64,000 nucleotides of DNA from Geothrix edaphica. GTDB taxonomy: Bacteria > Acidobacteriota > Holophagae > Holophagales > Holophagaceae. Shown here one piece after another: positions 22,922 through 29,083 of this stretch. Both the position numbers and the translations under genes were made by a program. The stretch lies in the NCBI RefSeq assembly GCF_030268045.1, contig NZ_BSDC01000001.1, positions 558,001-622,000 of the forward strand. The letters run 5' to 3'. Position 1 is the first letter of the stretch, and the number at the start of each line of letters is the position of its first letter. Below the pieces are notes generated by a model. That model saw only the letters and a list, made by a program, of their open reading frames with translations. It searched no databases and was not told where the DNA came from.

Positions 22922-24231
22922 TAGCCCTCCAGACTCTTCAGCGCCGCCACGAGCCGCTCGGCGGCACCCCGGGTGCGCTCGACGGGGGTGGCGTAGGAGA
23001 AGCGGATCCACTCGGCGCCGTAGGGGCTGAAGAAGGCGCCGGGAACGACGGCCACGCCGTGCTCCTCGGCCAGGTACTGGCCCATGGGCTCGGAGTCGGC
23101 CCAGCCTTTGGCCGCGAAGGCATCCGCCACCTTGATGAAGGCGTAGTAGCCCTGCCCGATGATGTGGGTGAGCTGCTGCTCCTTGAGGAAGCCGCGCAGC
23201 CAGGCGCGGCTGGCGCGGGTGGGCTCGGCGATGGGCGCGGAGGCGGCGGCGAAGCCCTTCTCGTAGGCGGCCATGGCCACGGCCAGGCTGAAGAAGGAGG
23301 GGATCACGGTGTGCGAGGCCTGGGCCACGATGACCTTGACCACCTCCGCGTCCGCCAGCAGGTGGCAGTTGCGGATGTTGGAGGCGCCGAGGCTCTTGGT
23401 GAGGCCGTCGAGCACCATCAGGCGCTTGCGCATCGCGGGCTCGAAGGCGCGCAGGAGGACGTTCACGTCGTAGGGCTCGCCATCCCCCACCGCGTGGTAC
23501 ATCCAGTCGAAGAGGACGTAGGCCACGCCGGCTTCCAGCGCAGTGCGGGCCAGGGCGATCTGGCGCTCCAGCGTGAGCGTCTGGCCCGTGGGGTTGTCGG
23601 GGCTGGTGATGACGAGGCCCGCCACCTTGCGGCTCGACTTCGCGGCTTCGGTGACGCAGGCGCGGATGCCGTCCTCGGAATAGGCCCAGCCTTCCTCCGC
23701 CCGGCCCGGGGCCCACATCACATTGGCGCCGATGCCGTACGGCCCCCAGTTGTAGCTGATCCAGGGCACGCGGCTGACCACGATCACGTCGCCCTGGCGG
23801 CCGTGGCCCAGGGCCAGCATGGCCTGGTAGGCCTTCTGCAGGCCGTCGCGGCCGCCCTGGGTGCCGATGACATTGGCCGTGCCCCAGCCGGTGTCCGGCG
23901 CGAGCTTCCAGTACTGCTCGGCCACGGCCTTGCGGTAGGCCTCGGTGCCGAAGGGCATGTCGTAGGCGGTGCCGTGCTGCTTCTGCAGCTCGAAGGCGCG
24001 GTCCAGCAGCGCCCCGGGCACGCCGGGGAGCGAGGCCCCGCCGTCGCCCTGGCTGGCGTCGAAGACCGGCGCGCCGGGCTGCTTCTCCTGGAAGACCTTC
24101 AGCGACTTGTTGATGAGGAACATGCGGGAGGCGGGAATCGGCGCCAGCTGTTTCAGGTGATCGCTCACCGGGACGAGATTGGCCTCAGGCACGGCGAAGG
24201 CGGGCGTTTCAGGGGAGAGCAGGGCAGCCAT
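22921..24231 (-). CDS. class I/II PLP-dependent aminotransferase
   Basis: 436 residues. The start at 24231 (MAALLSPETPAF) follows GGGAGGATCC; an upstream in-frame ATG at 24312 lies inside the terminator-like leader and is not favoured. Seen: SPDNPTGQTL (substrate and cofactor contact), DWMYHA, and DGLTKSLGASNIRNC with the probable PLP Lys of LTKS; the C-terminal GAFFSPYGAEWIRFSYATP carries the carboxylate-binding Arg. Fold type I. It is directly coupled to the ligase-M20 fusion downstream and follows proBA, so an amino acid with a gamma-glutamyl or proline-like relation could be its substrate, which is inference. Substrate specificity is not readable. Confidence 0.88.
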   Translation of the reverse strand: MAALLSPETPAFAVPEANLVPVSDHLKQLAPIPASRMFLINKSLKVFQEKQPGAPVFDASQGDGGASLPGVPGALLDRAFELQKQHGTAYDMPFGTEAYRKAVAEQYWKLAPDTGWGTANVIGTQGGRDGLQKAYQAMLALGHGRQGDVIVVSRVPWISYNWGPYGIGANVMWAPGRAEEGWAYSEDGIRACVTEAAKSSRKVAGLVITSPDNPTGQTLTLERQIALARTALEAGVAYVLFDWMYHAVGDGEPYDVNVLLRAFEPAMRKRLMVLDGLTKSLGASNIRNCHLLADAEVVKVIVAQASHTVIPSFFSLAVAMAAYEKGFAAASAPIAEPTRASRAWLRGFLKEQQLTHIIGQGYYAFIKVADAFAAKGWADSEPMGQYLAEEHGVAVVPGAFFSPYGAEWIRFSYATPVERTRGAAERLVAALKSLEG

Positions 24232-24247
24232 GGATCCTCCCGATACG

Positions 24248-24280
24248 AAAAAGTCGCCCCTGCGGCAACCCGGGGGCGAC
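24248..24280 (-). terminator. terminator-like hairpin in the aminotransferase leader
   Basis: On the minus strand GTCGCCCC pairs with GGGGCGAC around a 12-base loop, followed at once by TTTTT. The T-run ends only 16 bases before the aminotransferase ATG and its ribosome site. Transcripts from proBA or from an AT-rich promoter-like patch at 24315-24345 must pass it, so it should act as an attenuator as well as, or instead of, the proA terminator. An alternative CCCGG/CCGGG pairing between 24300-24306 and the hairpin loop is possible. Confidence 0.7.
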
Positions 24281-24352
24281 AAGCATTGGTTAAGATTACC
24301 AGTCCGGGCCATGGGCTCAAGTTATAGAACGTTATATATCAATAAATGATGG

Positions 24353-25669
24353 TTATGGTTCGCTGGTGAAATCCAGGTGCCGGAACGGCCGGCCCGAGGG
24401 CCCTGTGTAGTCCTCCACGCACTGCCCATGCCCCAGGAGGAGGTACCGGTAGCTGAGCAGGCCTTCGAGCCCCACGGGCCCGCGGGCATGGATGCGCCCG
24501 GTGCTGATGCCCACCTCGGCGCCGAAGCCGTACCGGTAGCCGTCGGCGAAGCGTGTGGAGGCGTTGTGGAAGACGCCCGCCGCATCGACCTCGGCCAGGA
24601 AGCGGGCCGCGGCCCGGGGATCTCTCGTCACGATGGCCTCCGTGTGGCCGCTGCCGTGGGCGCGGATGTGGGCCAGGGCCGCATCGAGATCCGCCACCAC
24701 CTTCAGGGCCAGGATGGGGGCGCCGTACTCCGCATCCCAGTCGGCTTCCGTGGCCGGGCCGAGGGTGGGCACCAGCTCCAGGCAGGCGGGGCAGCCCCGC
24801 AGCTCCACGCCCCGGGGGGCGAGGTCCGCCGCCAGGGCCGGCAGCAGACGGGCCGCGGCCCGGCGGTGGATCAGCACCGTCTCCACCGCGTTGCAGGCCG
24901 CCGGGTACTGCAGCTTCGCGTCCCGCACCAGGGCCACGGCCATGGCCGTCTCCGCGGCCTCGTCGAGGTACATGTGGCAGATGCCGTCGGCGTGCCCCAG
25001 CACGGGGATCCGGGTGGCGGCCTGGAGGCTCTGCACCAGCTCCCGGGAGCCGCGGGGGATCACGAGGTCCACCAGGTCGGGACGCTGCAGCAGGACTGCC
25101 ACGGCCTCGCGGTCCGGCAGGCCCTGGACCGCGGCGTCCGGCAAGCCGGCTTCCGCCAGGGCCTGCTGGATCACGGCCAGGAGCGCGGCGTTGGAGCGGC
25201 GGGCCTCGCGGCCGCCCTTGAGCAGGACCGCATTGCCGCTCTTGAGGGCCAGGGCGCTGATCTGGACCAGGGCGTCGGGCCTCGCTTCGAACACGACGCA
25301 GAGCACGCCCAGAGGGCAGCTCACGCGGGTGAGCTCGAGGCCGTCATCCAGCAGCCGGCGCAGCTGGACCCGGTGCAGGGGATCGGGCAGGGCGGCCACG
25401 GCGCGCACGCCCTGGGCCATGGCGGCCAGCTTGGGGGCATCCAGGTGGAGCCGCTGGAGGGTGGCGGCGGGGAGGGTGTCCCCGGCGGCGCGGACATCCT
25501 CTTCATTCGCCGCGAGGAGGACGTGGGCCTGGCGCTCCAGCAGGTCGGCCAGCCGCAGGAGTGCCGTCGATCGGAGCCCGGAGGAGGTGGTCGCCAGGCG
25601 CCGCGATGCCTCGCGGGCGGCCTGGGCCATGGCCTGGATCTGGAGGGGGCTGAGGGCTGCTTCGCTCAT
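24353..25669 (-). CDS. proA: glutamate-5-semialdehyde dehydrogenase (gamma-glutamyl phosphate reductase)
   Basis: NADPH-dependent reduction of gamma-glutamyl phosphate, second step of proline synthesis. 438 residues, usual length. The start at 25669 ([16 protein letters not shown]) overlaps the proB stop as ATGA. Seen: [46 protein letters not shown], catalytic Cys in [14 protein letters not shown], and C-terminal [17 protein letters not shown], all diagnostic of ProA. It lies with proB behind the proline-rich leader peptide and terminator at 26531-26660. Confidence 0.96.
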
Positions 25670-26514
25670 GGCTGGACTCCCCTGGGGGCGGCGAGGAAGA
25701 GGGTGCCGACGGGCTCGCCTGCCAGGATCTGGTCGAGGATCCCGACGGCGAGGCCCGAGGCCAGCACCACGGGCACGCCGGCCTTCGCCGCGGCCCGGGC
25801 CGCCGCCACCTTGCTGACCATGCCGCCCCGCCCGCGGCCCGAGGTGCCGTCGAGCCTGGCCTGGGGATCGGCCCCGAAGGGGATCTCGGTCAGGGGCCTC
25901 GCGTCCGCATGCAGCCCGGGGTTCCGGGTGTGGAGGGCAGTGACGTCCGAGAGGAGGATCAGCAGATCGGCCTCGAGATGCGCGGCGACGAGGGCCGACA
26001 GATGGTCGTTGTCGCTGAAGATCGGCCGCCGGCCGGGGGAGGGGCGCTCCAGCTCCAGGGTGGACACGGTGTCGTTCTCGTTGAGCACGGGGATCGCCCC
26101 CAGTTCCAGCAGGGTCTCGAGGGTGCGCCGAAGGTTGGCGTGGCGGAGGGGATCGGCGAAGTCGTCTTCCGTGAGCAGCACCTGGGCGGCGCACAGGCCC
26201 ATGCGGGCGAAGCCCTCCTGGTAGATGGACATGAGCTGGCCCTGGCCGGCCGCGGCGCAGGCCTGCTTCTGCGACAGGCCCTCGGGCTGGATGCCGAGCT
26301 GCCGGGCGCCGAGCCCCACGGCGCCAGAGGATACCAGCACGGGCTGGGCGCCCTGCCGGCGCAGGGTCGCCACGGTTTCCATCAGTCCGTACAGGCGGCT
26401 CAGGGCCGGCCGGCCTTCGTTGTCCAGCACCACCTGCGTGCCGAGCTTCAGCACGATCCGCCTGGCCTTGGAAAGGTCCGTCCGGGCGGCGGAGGCTTCG
26501 AGTCTGTGGATCAT
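25666..26514 (-). CDS. proB: glutamate 5-kinase without PUA domain
   Basis: ATP-dependent phosphorylation of glutamate, the first and normally proline-inhibited step of proline synthesis. 282 residues: the amino-acid-kinase domain only, lacking the C-terminal PUA domain of the 367-residue E. coli enzyme. The start at 26514 (MIHRLEASAARTD) has GGCAGGT upstream. Seen: RIVLKLGTQVV, VSSGAVGLGARQLG, GQGQLMSIYQEGF, VLNENDTVS, FSDNDHLSALVA and GTSGRGRGGMVSKV. ATGA overlap with proA. The transcript leader encodes a proline-rich peptide followed by a terminator hairpin, suggesting attenuation in addition to feedback inhibition. Confidence 0.96.
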   Translation of the reverse strand: MIHRLEASAARTDLSKARRIVLKLGTQVVLDNEGRPALSRLYGLMETVATLRRQGAQPVLVSSGAVGLGARQLGIQPEGLSQKQACAAAGQGQLMSIYQEGFARMGLCAAQVLLTEDDFADPLRHANLRRTLETLLELGAIPVLNENDTVSTLELERPSPGRRPIFSDNDHLSALVAAHLEADLLILLSDVTALHTRNPGLHADARPLTEIPFGADPQARLDGTSGRGRGGMVSKVAAARAAAKAGVPVVLASGLAVGILDQILAGEPVGTLFLAAPRGVQP

Positions 26515-26530
26515 GGGACCTGCCGAAAGC

Positions 26531-26559
26531 AAAACCCCCGGGCTGGTGGGCACCGGGGG
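26531..26559 (-). terminator. attenuator-type terminator before proB
   Basis: On the minus strand CCCCCGG pairs with CCGGGGG around an 11-base loop and is followed by TTTTGCTTTC. It begins 29 bases after the stop codon of the proline-rich leader frame and ends 16 bases before the proB ATG. The loop contains CCCACC (complement of 26545-26550), which can pair with GGTGGG inside the leader frame (26599-26604), giving a competing antiterminator. Confidence 0.75.
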
Positions 26560-26588
26560 CGGGTGAGCGGATCGTATGGACGACGGAC

Positions 26589-26660
26589 TCAGACCCCTCC
26601 CACCGGAATGCCGGGGATGGGCTGGCTGGGGATCGGGTTGAGGGTCGCGACAGGAATCAT
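26589..26660 (-). CDS. proline-rich leader peptide of the proBA operon
   Basis: A 23-codon frame with six proline codons, including the run NPIPSQPIPGIPVGG, ending in TGA 29 bases before a terminator hairpin and 74 bases before proB. It starts with ATG at 26660; no clear Shine-Dalgarno is seen, and the message could start very near the ATG. In classical attenuators the ribosome stalls at scarce-amino-acid codons and frees downstream RNA to form an antiterminator. Here CCGG/CCGG within the Pro16-Pro19 codons, GGTGGG just after them, and CCCACC in the terminator loop provide the needed alternative pairings. Function is inferred from architecture. Confidence 0.65.
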   Translation of the reverse strand: MIPVATLNPIPSQPIPGIPVGGV

Positions 26661-26712
26661 GGTGTGCCAAGTGTGCCGAAGCGGGGCGGCAGGCGCAATG
26701 GAGAATGGCGGA

Positions 26713-28122
26713 TCAGTTCGCGGCCAGCTGCAGAGCCTCCCACACCGCCTCGACGTGGCGCCGCTCGGTGGCCTCCGCCCCGATGCTCACGCGGAGCATC
26801 TGCCGCCCCTTGAGTAGCGCGGGCGTGAGGTAGGCCTTGCCGCCCTCGTTGATGCGCCGGGCGATCTCCAGGTTGTGGGCGGTGAGGGAGGCCTCGTCCA
26901 GGCCGGGCTTGAGATGGCGGAGGCAGACGGTCTGGAGGGGCACCGGGGCCAGGCGCTCCCAGTCCGGGGCGGCGTCCACCTGGTCCTTGAGCCACTGGGC
27001 ATTGTCCAGGTCGCGCCGGATGCGGGCCTGGAGGCCCTCCACGCCGACATCCATGAGGTAGAACCAGAGCTTGAGCGCCCGGAAGCGGCGGCCCAGCTGG
27101 ATGTGCCAGTCGCGGAAGTTGCTCACCTGGCCGTCCTGGGCCGTACGCAGGTAGCTGGGGTTGGTGCTCATCACGCGGATGAGGTGCTGGGGATCGCGCA
27201 CGTAGTAGGCGCTGAGGTCGAAGCCCACGCCCATCCACTTGTGGGGGTTGAAGACCAGGCTGTCGGCCCGCTCGATGCCCTCCCACATCCAGCGGCACTC
27301 GGGCAGCACCATGGCCGTGCCCGCGAGGGCCGCGTCCACGTGGAGCCACATCCCGTGCCGTTCCGCCAGGTCCGCCAGGGCCGGCAGGGGGTCCAGGGCC
27401 GTGGTGCCCGTGGTGCCGATGGCCGCGACCAGAGCGCAGGGGCGCAGGCCGATCTCGATGTCCTTCCCGATGGCGGCCTGGAGCAGGTCGAGCCGGACGG
27501 CGTGATTCTCATCCGTGGGGATGAGGCGGAGGAAGCTGCGGCCGAAGCCCGCCAGCAGCGCGGCCTTCTCGATGGAGCTGTGGCCCTGGTCCGTGGCGTA
27601 GACCACCAGGGGCGCCTCGCCGCTCTGGAGGCCTTCGGTGTTCTGGGCGTAGTCCGAGACCTTCTCCCGGGCGCAGAGCAGGGCCGTGAACGTGGCGGTG
27701 CTGGCGGTGTCGTGGATGACGCCGGTGAAGGCCGTGCTCAGGCCCACCATCTGGCGCAGCCAGTCCATGACCACTTCCTCGACTTCCGTGGCGGCGGGGC
27801 TGGTCTGCCAGCTCATGCCCTGGGCACCCAGGCCCGAGGCGGCCAGGTCGCCGAGGATCGAGCTGTAACTGGTGTTGCTGGGGAAGTAGGCGAAAAAGGA
27901 TGGATGGTTCCAGTGGGTGATGCCGGGCATCACGTCCCGCTCCAGGGCCGCCAGGGCCTGGGCCACGCGGCCCCCGTGGAGGGGCGGGTGGTCCGGGAAG
28001 GCCGCCCGGATCTCGCCGGGCTTCACCTGGCTCATGACGGGCAGGCGCTCGAGGCCTTCGCGGTAGTCTGCGATCCAATCCACGAGCTGGTAACCGAGGC
28101 GGCGGAATTCTTGGGCGTCCAT
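26713..28122 (-). CDS. PLP-dependent aromatic-amino-acid-type decarboxylase
   Basis: Group II decarboxylase related to DOPA/tyrosine/tryptophan decarboxylases, 469 residues. The start at 28122 (MDAQEFRRLGYQLVDWIADY) follows AGGGA. Seen: the DDC-type N-terminus ending in NHPSFFAYFPSNTSYSSILGD, TASTATFTALL, WLHVDAALAGTAMVLPE, and the PLP lysine motif VFNPHKWMGVGFD. It would release CO2 from an L-amino acid to give an amine. Substrate cannot be fixed from sequence; aromatic residues are usual. It lies 52 bases before the proBA leader on the same strand. Confidence 0.9.
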   Translation of the reverse strand: MDAQEFRRLGYQLVDWIADYREGLERLPVMSQVKPGEIRAAFPDHPPLHGGRVAQALAALERDVMPGITHWNHPSFFAYFPSNTSYSSILGDLAASGLGAQGMSWQTSPAATEVEEVVMDWLRQMVGLSTAFTGVIHDTASTATFTALLCAREKVSDYAQNTEGLQSGEAPLVVYATDQGHSSIEKAALLAGFGRSFLRLIPTDENHAVRLDLLQAAIGKDIEIGLRPCALVAAIGTTGTTALDPLPALADLAERHGMWLHVDAALAGTAMVLPECRWMWEGIERADSLVFNPHKWMGVGFDLSAYYVRDPQHLIRVMSTNPSYLRTAQDGQVSNFRDWHIQLGRRFRALKLWFYLMDVGVEGLQARIRRDLDNAQWLKDQVDAAPDWERLAPVPLQTVCLRHLKPGLDEASLTAHNLEIARRINEGGKAYLTPALLKGRQMLRVSIGAEATERRHVEAVWEALQLAAN

Positions 28123-28190
28123 GGTCCCTAGTTTCGCCGCATCCCGGCCGCGGCGCGACCTGGATGTGGGAAGGGGCAATCGGCTGCGGG

Positions 28191-28931
28191 TCAGCTCAGG
28201 TGGAGGATGACGGTGGTTTTCGACTGGCCGCGTTCGCCCCCGCCGGAACCGCTGCTTTCCCTGGCATGGCGCACCACCACCAGGCGGTTCCCGACCTTCA
28301 TGAACTGGAAGGATTCCTTCTGCTGCTGCTCGAAACTGATGACGAGCAGGGCCCGCCCCTTCATCCGGGTATGGGTCTCGGCGGCCAGGGGCAGGCCGTC
28401 GGTTCCGACCCAGACGCTGGCCGTGGCATCGAAATCCTTCACGTATTTCTGGTCCTGCTTGGACAGCCTGGGCGCGAGCTTCAACAGGAAGCGCCTGGCC
28501 GGTTTCCCCTGCCAGGCCTCGGCCTTCTCCTCCAGCAGCTGCCCCTGTTCCAGCATGCGGAGCAGTTCCTCGGCCCCATTGAGGTAATCGCTCACCTCGA
28601 CGGGCTTCAGACCCTCGATGGCCCGCCGCGTGGTGGCCCTCTTTTCGGGGTCCATTGCCTGGACCCTGGCCTCCTGGGCAGCGGTCTGGATGAGGGCCCG
28701 GTTCCAGGACATCCTCAACCCCTGGGGACCATCCTCCACGAAGGTGGTGGCCTTGCCTTCGGTGATGACCGGGGCCTTGTCATCCCCCTGCCGGCTCCAG
28801 AACTGGTAGTCCACGCTGGCCTTCACGGGGTCCTGGCCGGTCATCCGGGCGAGCGTGGCCTTGAGGTCCGACAGTCCATCGGCCTGGAGGAGTCCACCGG
28901 CGAGGAGCAGGGCAACGAGTTGAAGGCGCAT
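28191..28931 (-). CDS. exported protein of unknown function
   Basis: 246 residues with a signal peptide (MRLQLVALLLAGGLLQADG). No family recognised. The mature chain has alternating strands (KASVDYQFWSRQGDDK; KATTFVEDGPQGLRMSW; TASVWVGTDGLPLAAETHT; NRLVVVRHARESSGSGGG) that recall the lipoprotein-carrier-like beta sandwiches found in many periplasmic proteins, and ends in a Gly/Ser-rich turn. Monocistronic; the decarboxylase follows 68 bases downstream on the same strand. Confidence 0.7.
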   Translation of the reverse strand: MRLQLVALLLAGGLLQADGLSDLKATLARMTGQDPVKASVDYQFWSRQGDDKAPVITEGKATTFVEDGPQGLRMSWNRALIQTAAQEARVQAMDPEKRATTRRAIEGLKPVEVSDYLNGAEELLRMLEQGQLLEEKAEAWQGKPARRFLLKLAPRLSKQDQKYVKDFDATASVWVGTDGLPLAAETHTRMKGRALLVISFEQQQKESFQFMKVGNRLVVVRHARESSGSGGGERGQSKTTVILHLS

Positions 28932-29083
28932 GGCGGCTCCCGGGAATCGAACTGGATCAGCTTACGGGAATGGATCCGGTTCGTATCGCAGCAGGTCTCC
29001 CGGCTGGCAGTCCAGCGCGCGGAAGCCGAAGTGAGCGGCGATCTCCCGCGGTGCAGCCGGGGCGATTTCCCTTCAAGGAATCG

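Follow-up and report, generated by a model that had tools for sequence, protein, structure and literature searches.

Which function can be assigned to a short proline-rich reading frame and a terminator-like hairpin that stand in front of the proline biosynthesis genes proBA of Geothrix edaphica, a member of Geothrix (Holophagaceae, Acidobacteriota)? The locus lies on the minus strand of a 64,000-nucleotide stretch of the genome, referred to here as the window. The controls considered so far for proline synthesis are feedback inhibition and, in Bacillus, T-boxes. The initial annotation of the window had proposed a proline-codon attenuator for proBA, a proposal that gained support from comparison with related genomes and from leaders of the same architecture carrying Phe, Asn, Ile or His codons. 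Judged from these sequences, the region is in all likelihood a ribosome-mediated attenuator of proBA that responds to proline by way of tRNA-Pro charging.

The leader region of proBA in the window

The features of the region are collected in Table 1. As the initial annotation had described, an ATG frame of 23 codons, six of them for proline, lies between a gene for a PLP-dependent decarboxylase (stop at 26713) and proB. It opens with the ATG at 26660 and closes with TGA at 26591-26589, and it is followed by a CCCCCGG/CCGGGGG hairpin that begins 29 nt past the stop, by TTTT and by the proB ribosome site. The hairpin has a folding energy of -17.4 kcal/mol. No Shine-Dalgarno sequence precedes the leader start, and the -10-like element CACACT stands 17 nt from the -35-like element and exactly 9 nt from the leader ATG. 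This spacing predicts a transcription start about 0-5 nt before the ATG, which would make the RNA nearly leaderless; with the predicted promoter, transcription would begin ahead of the leader and not after 26589.

Table 1. Features of the proBA leader region and the genes behind it (window coordinates)
Feature	Position	Strand	Basis
-35-like element TTGCGC	26693..26698	-	Sequence; conserved column block in 22-genome alignment, TTG kept in most relatives
-10-like element CACACT	26670..26675	-	CA[C/G]A[C/A]T with identical spacing to the ATG in 26/26 Geothrix leaders
Leader peptide frame MIPVATLNPIPSQPIPGIPVGGV, 23 codons	26589..26660	-	Start, stop, frame and Pro9/Pro11 conserved in relatives
Predicted antiterminator	26549..26612	-	Alternative folds; native strand pairing better than cross-species pairing
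Intrinsic terminator hairpin CCCCCGG..CCGGGGG, CCCCCGGTGCCCACCAGCCCGGGGG	26535..26559	-	Sequence; helix conserved
Terminator U-tract TTTT, then GCTTT	26531..26534	-	Sequence
proB, glutamate 5-kinase, 282 aa	25666..26514	-	NCBIfam TIGR01027 over cut-off; Pfam AA_kinase only
proA, glutamate-5-semialdehyde dehydrogenase, overlaps proB stop	24353..25669	-	NCBIfam NF001221/TIGR00407 over cut-off

Folding of the whole window region as a single sequence was unexceptional (z = -1.4), and a search with 4227 Rfam families on both strands at a permissive threshold found no leader family, T-box or riboswitch there, so the case rests on conservation across relatives and not on the window alone. A T-box covariance model gave no match in 26400-26900 up to E = 10, and eight related loci gave no Rfam match at the gathering score. 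Scans with strict patterns missed the window terminator (generic terminator scan) and reported no promoter in 24000-29000 (sigma-70 scan). Unlike ProB of the E. coli type, the window ProB has no PUA domain at its C-terminus.

Conservation in Geothrix and in other genera

A search for ProB found it in 27 of 47 Geothrix genomes, and one of the 27 loci is cut at a contig end, leaving 26 with upstream sequence; the named relatives are G. campi, G. fuzhouensis, G. terrae, G. paludis, G. limicola and G. fermentans. The cassette, composed of the promoter-like motif, the Pro leader and the terminator, is present upstream of proB in all 26. None of them lacks the Pro codons or the hairpin, a loss that the initial annotation had named as evidence against its proposal. 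The -10-like element reads CACACT, except for CAGACT twice and CACAAT twice, and lies exactly 9 nt from the start codon in every case. The frame has 22 or 23 codons, three to six of them for proline, with the core N-P-R-P-S-H-P in most. Among the 22 leaders of 23 codons, proline occupies codon 11 in all, codon 9 in 21 and codon 14 in 17, and in the alignment of relatives the length differences inside the leader are multiples of three. Between leader stop and hairpin there are 26-31 nt throughout, and the terminator is always a CCCCCG/CGGGGG hairpin followed by T; over 29 sequences, 96.9% of the pair cells of its helix are retained, with one pair alternating between A-U and G-C.

The position of the hairpin between the decarboxylase gene and proB would also suit a 3' terminator of the decarboxylase gene, in which case the Pro-rich frame would be a chance product of C-rich DNA, which readily yields Pro codons. 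However, the region 45-220 nt upstream of the leader sorts into many unrelated sequence groups, whereas the cassette stays similar and remains with proB or proC; the cassette is therefore linked to the proline gene and does not belong to the end of any single upstream gene. A conserved promoter-like motif and a conserved frame also stand between the decarboxylase gene and the hairpin, and we regard this explanation as extremely improbable.

A further possibility is that leader and hairpin gate the proB ribosome site and not transcription termination, for hairpin and U-tract end just 17 nt before the proB ATG. Against such translational control, the hairpin does not include the ribosome site GGCAGGT (26524-26518), and the G5 arm followed by the U-tract is kept in nearly all relatives, which points to termination. 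We consider translational control very unlikely, and transcription attenuation remains the preferred reading.

The association with proline genes extends to other gene arrangements. In some Geothrix, fused proBA genes likewise carry the leader. Fused ProB-ProA proteins of 726-728 aa with AA_kinase and Aldedh domains are encoded at L025 (1447-3633) and L027 (184-2364), and the fusion resembles the P5C synthetase arrangement of plants and animals. No ProB match was obtained in 20 of the 47 Geothrix genomes (e.g., G001, G002, G018, G032 and G070), several of which are 96-100% complete; the ProB-less genomes examined still have proC with a Pro leader (L081-L086).

The proline operon of genera g17 and g23, which belong to the same family, opens with proC followed by proB, and a Pro-rich leader and a terminator precede proC (proC-proB operons L042, L043, L045 and L046). 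A Pro-rich frame also stands before proB in L044 and L041, both of g23, the latter without a visible terminator. The distance from the -10-like element to the ATG in other genera is mostly 6-7 nt, with 12 nt in L041. In G092 the Pro-rich frame was present and a terminator was not seen, and in G075 and G082 no part of the cassette was seen upstream of proB; proB loci of other families in the class (L030-L034) showed no terminator near proB. The sequence CGCCCTAG (Arg-Pro-Ser) is conserved at the nucleotide level in Pro leaders of several genera, more than Pro codons need (L010-L013, L015, L023-L026, L028, L029, L044, L045 and the proC leaders).

Leaders with codons for other amino acids

The covariance model R1 was built from proB leaders and two proC-operon leaders, that is, from Pro leaders only. 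Of the 93 genomes of the class, 58 had a match to it at E <= 0.001, every one within Holophagaceae, and the 16 genomes from other families had zero. The R1 hits include an additional proB leader (L093) and, upstream of proC in the genome of the window, a second Pro leader, MILIPAIHPRPSTLRAGGVA (L078); Pro codons and hairpin are thus kept before proC in this genome as well as in other genera. The same genome also contains a Phe-rich leader with terminator, MTLSRAFFFSFRTPGARVGGV, before pheA (L079, G000:C2:201273-201411) and an Asn-rich leader with terminator, MTNPSLRSNRNINRLPRANRAWAGEGLT, before asnB (L080, G000:C1:1220832-1220941). The upstream region of its ilvB was scanned and gave no candidate leader.

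Nearly all of the 60 further R1 stretches examined lie before proC, pheA or asparagine synthetase genes. The non-Pro leaders include 27 Phe-rich ones before pheA and eight Asn-rich ones before asnB or asnA-like genes, with codons that are always cognate, and there is one case each of an Ile-rich leader before ilvA (MTPSARLIPAAIAIISREGA) and a His-rich leader before hisG (MTTFTFHHHHAHPPPPG). The mean number of cognate codons per leader is 4.7 Pro for proB, 3.7 Pro for proC, 4.3 Phe for pheA and 4.4 Asn for the asn genes. The codon follows the product of the gene, as codon-specific stalling predicts, and neither base composition nor an unrelated function would yield such a match; the Phe, Asn, Ile and His codons before pheA, asnB, ilvA and hisG, respectively, speak in the same way against a chance frame from C-rich DNA. 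Nothing supports the predicted codon-specific stalling of the ribosome more strongly than this agreement between codon and gene. In another genus, an Asn-rich leader stands before an asparagine synthetase A-like gene that is non-homologous to asnB (L087), a leader type that thus occurs with two different enzymes for one product; the asnA-like gene matches NCBIfam models below their cut-off.

The leaders also bear on whether the nascent peptide itself could be the signal. An arrest peptide or an EF-P-dependent stall would work the same terminator through the Pro-rich nascent chain and not through uncharged tRNA-Pro, and such a mechanism could draw on the conserved non-Pro residues (N-P-R-P-S-H) and on a PPP motif in the leaders of one subgroup. 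Proline sensing offers no explanation for the conservation of Arg, Ser and His next to the Pro codons. The window leader, however, is without consecutive prolines and has Ile in place of Arg10 and Gln in place of His13, and leaders of the same architecture for other amino acids carry cognate codons that arrest does not need. Peptide arrest is hence hardly probable, and sensing of tRNA-Pro charging is preferred.

The choice among Pro codons is also uneven. CCT makes up 46 of 142 Pro codons (32%) in the leaders, compared with 4 of 107 (3.7%) in six window genes, a small sample, and 16 of the 22 leaders of 23 codons have CCT as codon 11. The search for tRNA-Pro genes yielded one with anticodon GGG and one with TGG, and may have overlooked one with CGG. 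We consider it quite probable that Holophagaceae possess a regulon of nearly leaderless attenuators on one plan, in which the codons are swapped per gene (Pro for proB/proC, Phe for pheA, Asn for asnB/asnA-like, Ile for ilvA and His for hisG) and the rare CCU is favoured as sensor; its Pro and Asn specificities would be ones not previously described for biosynthetic genes.

Alternative folds, predicted mechanism and known attenuators

In the folding test, a ribosome was placed with codon 10 in its A site and the RNA that it leaves uncovered was folded as far as the 3' arm of the terminator; an antiterminator of -21 to -35 kcal/mol was available in 31 of 31 sequences. In these computed folds, the G-rich last leader codons join the pre-terminator stretch and the 5' arm of the terminator. 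With the ribosome at the stop codon, the antiterminator dropped to 0 to -8 kcal/mol and terminators of -7 to -24 kcal/mol were left free. The proC, pheA, asnB and asnA-like leaders behaved alike.

In the window, one strand of the predicted antiterminator consists of codons 17-23 and the stop region, the other of the 20 nt ahead of the terminator plus the terminator's 5' arm; the pairing includes CCGG at 26606-26603 with CCGG at 26556-26553. Both strands of the CCGG/CCGG helix that the initial annotation had derived from Pro codons are present as claimed. Its GGTGGG:CCCACC pairing also has both strands in the window, CCCACC being in the terminator loop, but is confined to the closest relatives; the exact antiterminator first suggested is thus only partly general, and it is the pairing of codons 17-23 and the stop region that is more widely supported as the alternative.

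Compared with shuffled sequence, the single-genome z of the antiterminator is modest (mean about -1.1 to -1.2), and in L022, L024, L028 and L029 the antiterminator was no better than shuffled. RNAalifold gave no single consensus antiterminator for both Geothrix subgroups because the strands differ between them, and a permutation test was used instead. Native strand pairing was stronger than cross-species pairing (-27.9 vs. -25.7 kcal/mol, 18 representatives, p = 0.0006, ignoring phylogeny), and with all 31 sequences 0 of 20000 strand permutations were as good, phylogeny again being ignored. At equilibrium the terminator, in many cases accompanied by a Pro-codon hairpin, is the preferred fold of the complete RNA, and the switch must therefore be kinetic; known attenuators likewise decide kinetically.

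On the basis of these folds and of the conserved promoter, we propose a plausible model. Transcription would begin at, or a few bases ahead of, the leader ATG, and a ribosome would load on the nearly leaderless RNA and translate the 23-codon leader. When charged tRNA-Pro is ample, the ribosome would reach the stop codon and mask the G-rich codons 17-23, allowing the C5G/CG5 hairpin to form and transcription to end before proB. When charged tRNA-Pro is scarce, the ribosome would stall at the Pro codons, of which Pro9 and Pro11 are the most conserved, leaving codons 17-23 free to pair with the pre-terminator stretch and the 5' arm of the terminator; the terminator could then not form, and proBA would be transcribed. 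The sequence features expected of an attenuator were found at this locus: a leader frame with several codons for the pathway product, an intrinsic terminator between this frame and the first structural gene, conservation of the frame together with its tie to pathway genes (proB, proC or fused proBA), and, by computed folds, a mutually exclusive antiterminator available only on an early stall, which is weak by single-sequence z. From its sequence and conservation, the cassette is a genuine, conserved element and very probably acts as a classical-type proline attenuator with a new specificity.

The classical attenuators of Proteobacteria (trp, his, phe, leu, thr and ilv) share with it a short frame rich in codons for the pathway product and mutually exclusive antiterminator and intrinsic terminator structures just upstream of the first biosynthetic gene. 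The Geothrix leader differs from them in its Pro (and Asn) specificity, its nearly leaderless start, the location of the antiterminator 5' strand inside the leader frame, and the host phylum, Acidobacteriota. In Salmonella, the leader frames mgtP (mgtCBR) and mgtL (mgtA) detect tRNA-Pro charging through their Pro codons and influence transcription attenuation (PMC3641672). Both systems thus share proline codons in a leader frame and transcription attenuation, but mgtP and mgtL serve Mg2+ transport and virulence genes and not proline synthesis, their sequence is unrelated, and mgtP has a Shine-Dalgarno sequence, unlike the Geothrix leader. Bacillus proBA and proI are governed by proline T-boxes, whose leader-RNA terminator switch, with the specifier CCU, induces these genes on proline starvation (PMC3858371). 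These act on the same steps (proBA and the P5C reductase gene), and their CCU specifier parallels the CCT enriched in the leaders; however, T-boxes bind tRNA directly and need no translation, and the window has no T-box match. The transcript of S. meliloti trpL starts at the leader ATG (PMC7298713), a precedent for a leader frame at the 5' end of the transcript and for the predicted leaderless start, although with Trp codons, other genes and another phylum.

A survey from 2010 left almost all predicted Acidobacteriota attenuators without an assigned function (PMC2965389), and no proline leader is among those listed in attenuator surveys (PMC2965389, PMC1262725). The open-access literature searched yielded no attenuator with a proline or asparagine leader in front of biosynthetic genes, and none for proBA, as the initial annotation had also remarked, an absence that is suggestive only. 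In that literature such control is undescribed for Acidobacteriota, and the specificity of the Asn leader seems to be new.

The cassette is present in Geothrix fermentans DSM 14018 and further named isolates, which makes the model testable at the bench. The Pro, Phe and Asn versions of one plan in one genome form a natural codon-swap series, with which it can be asked how leader codons are chosen, including the enrichment of the rare CCU. If the proposed mechanism is true, leader-peptide attenuation would join the known controls of proline synthesis, on both the proBA and the P5C reductase steps, and a function would be assigned to attenuators of Acidobacteriota.
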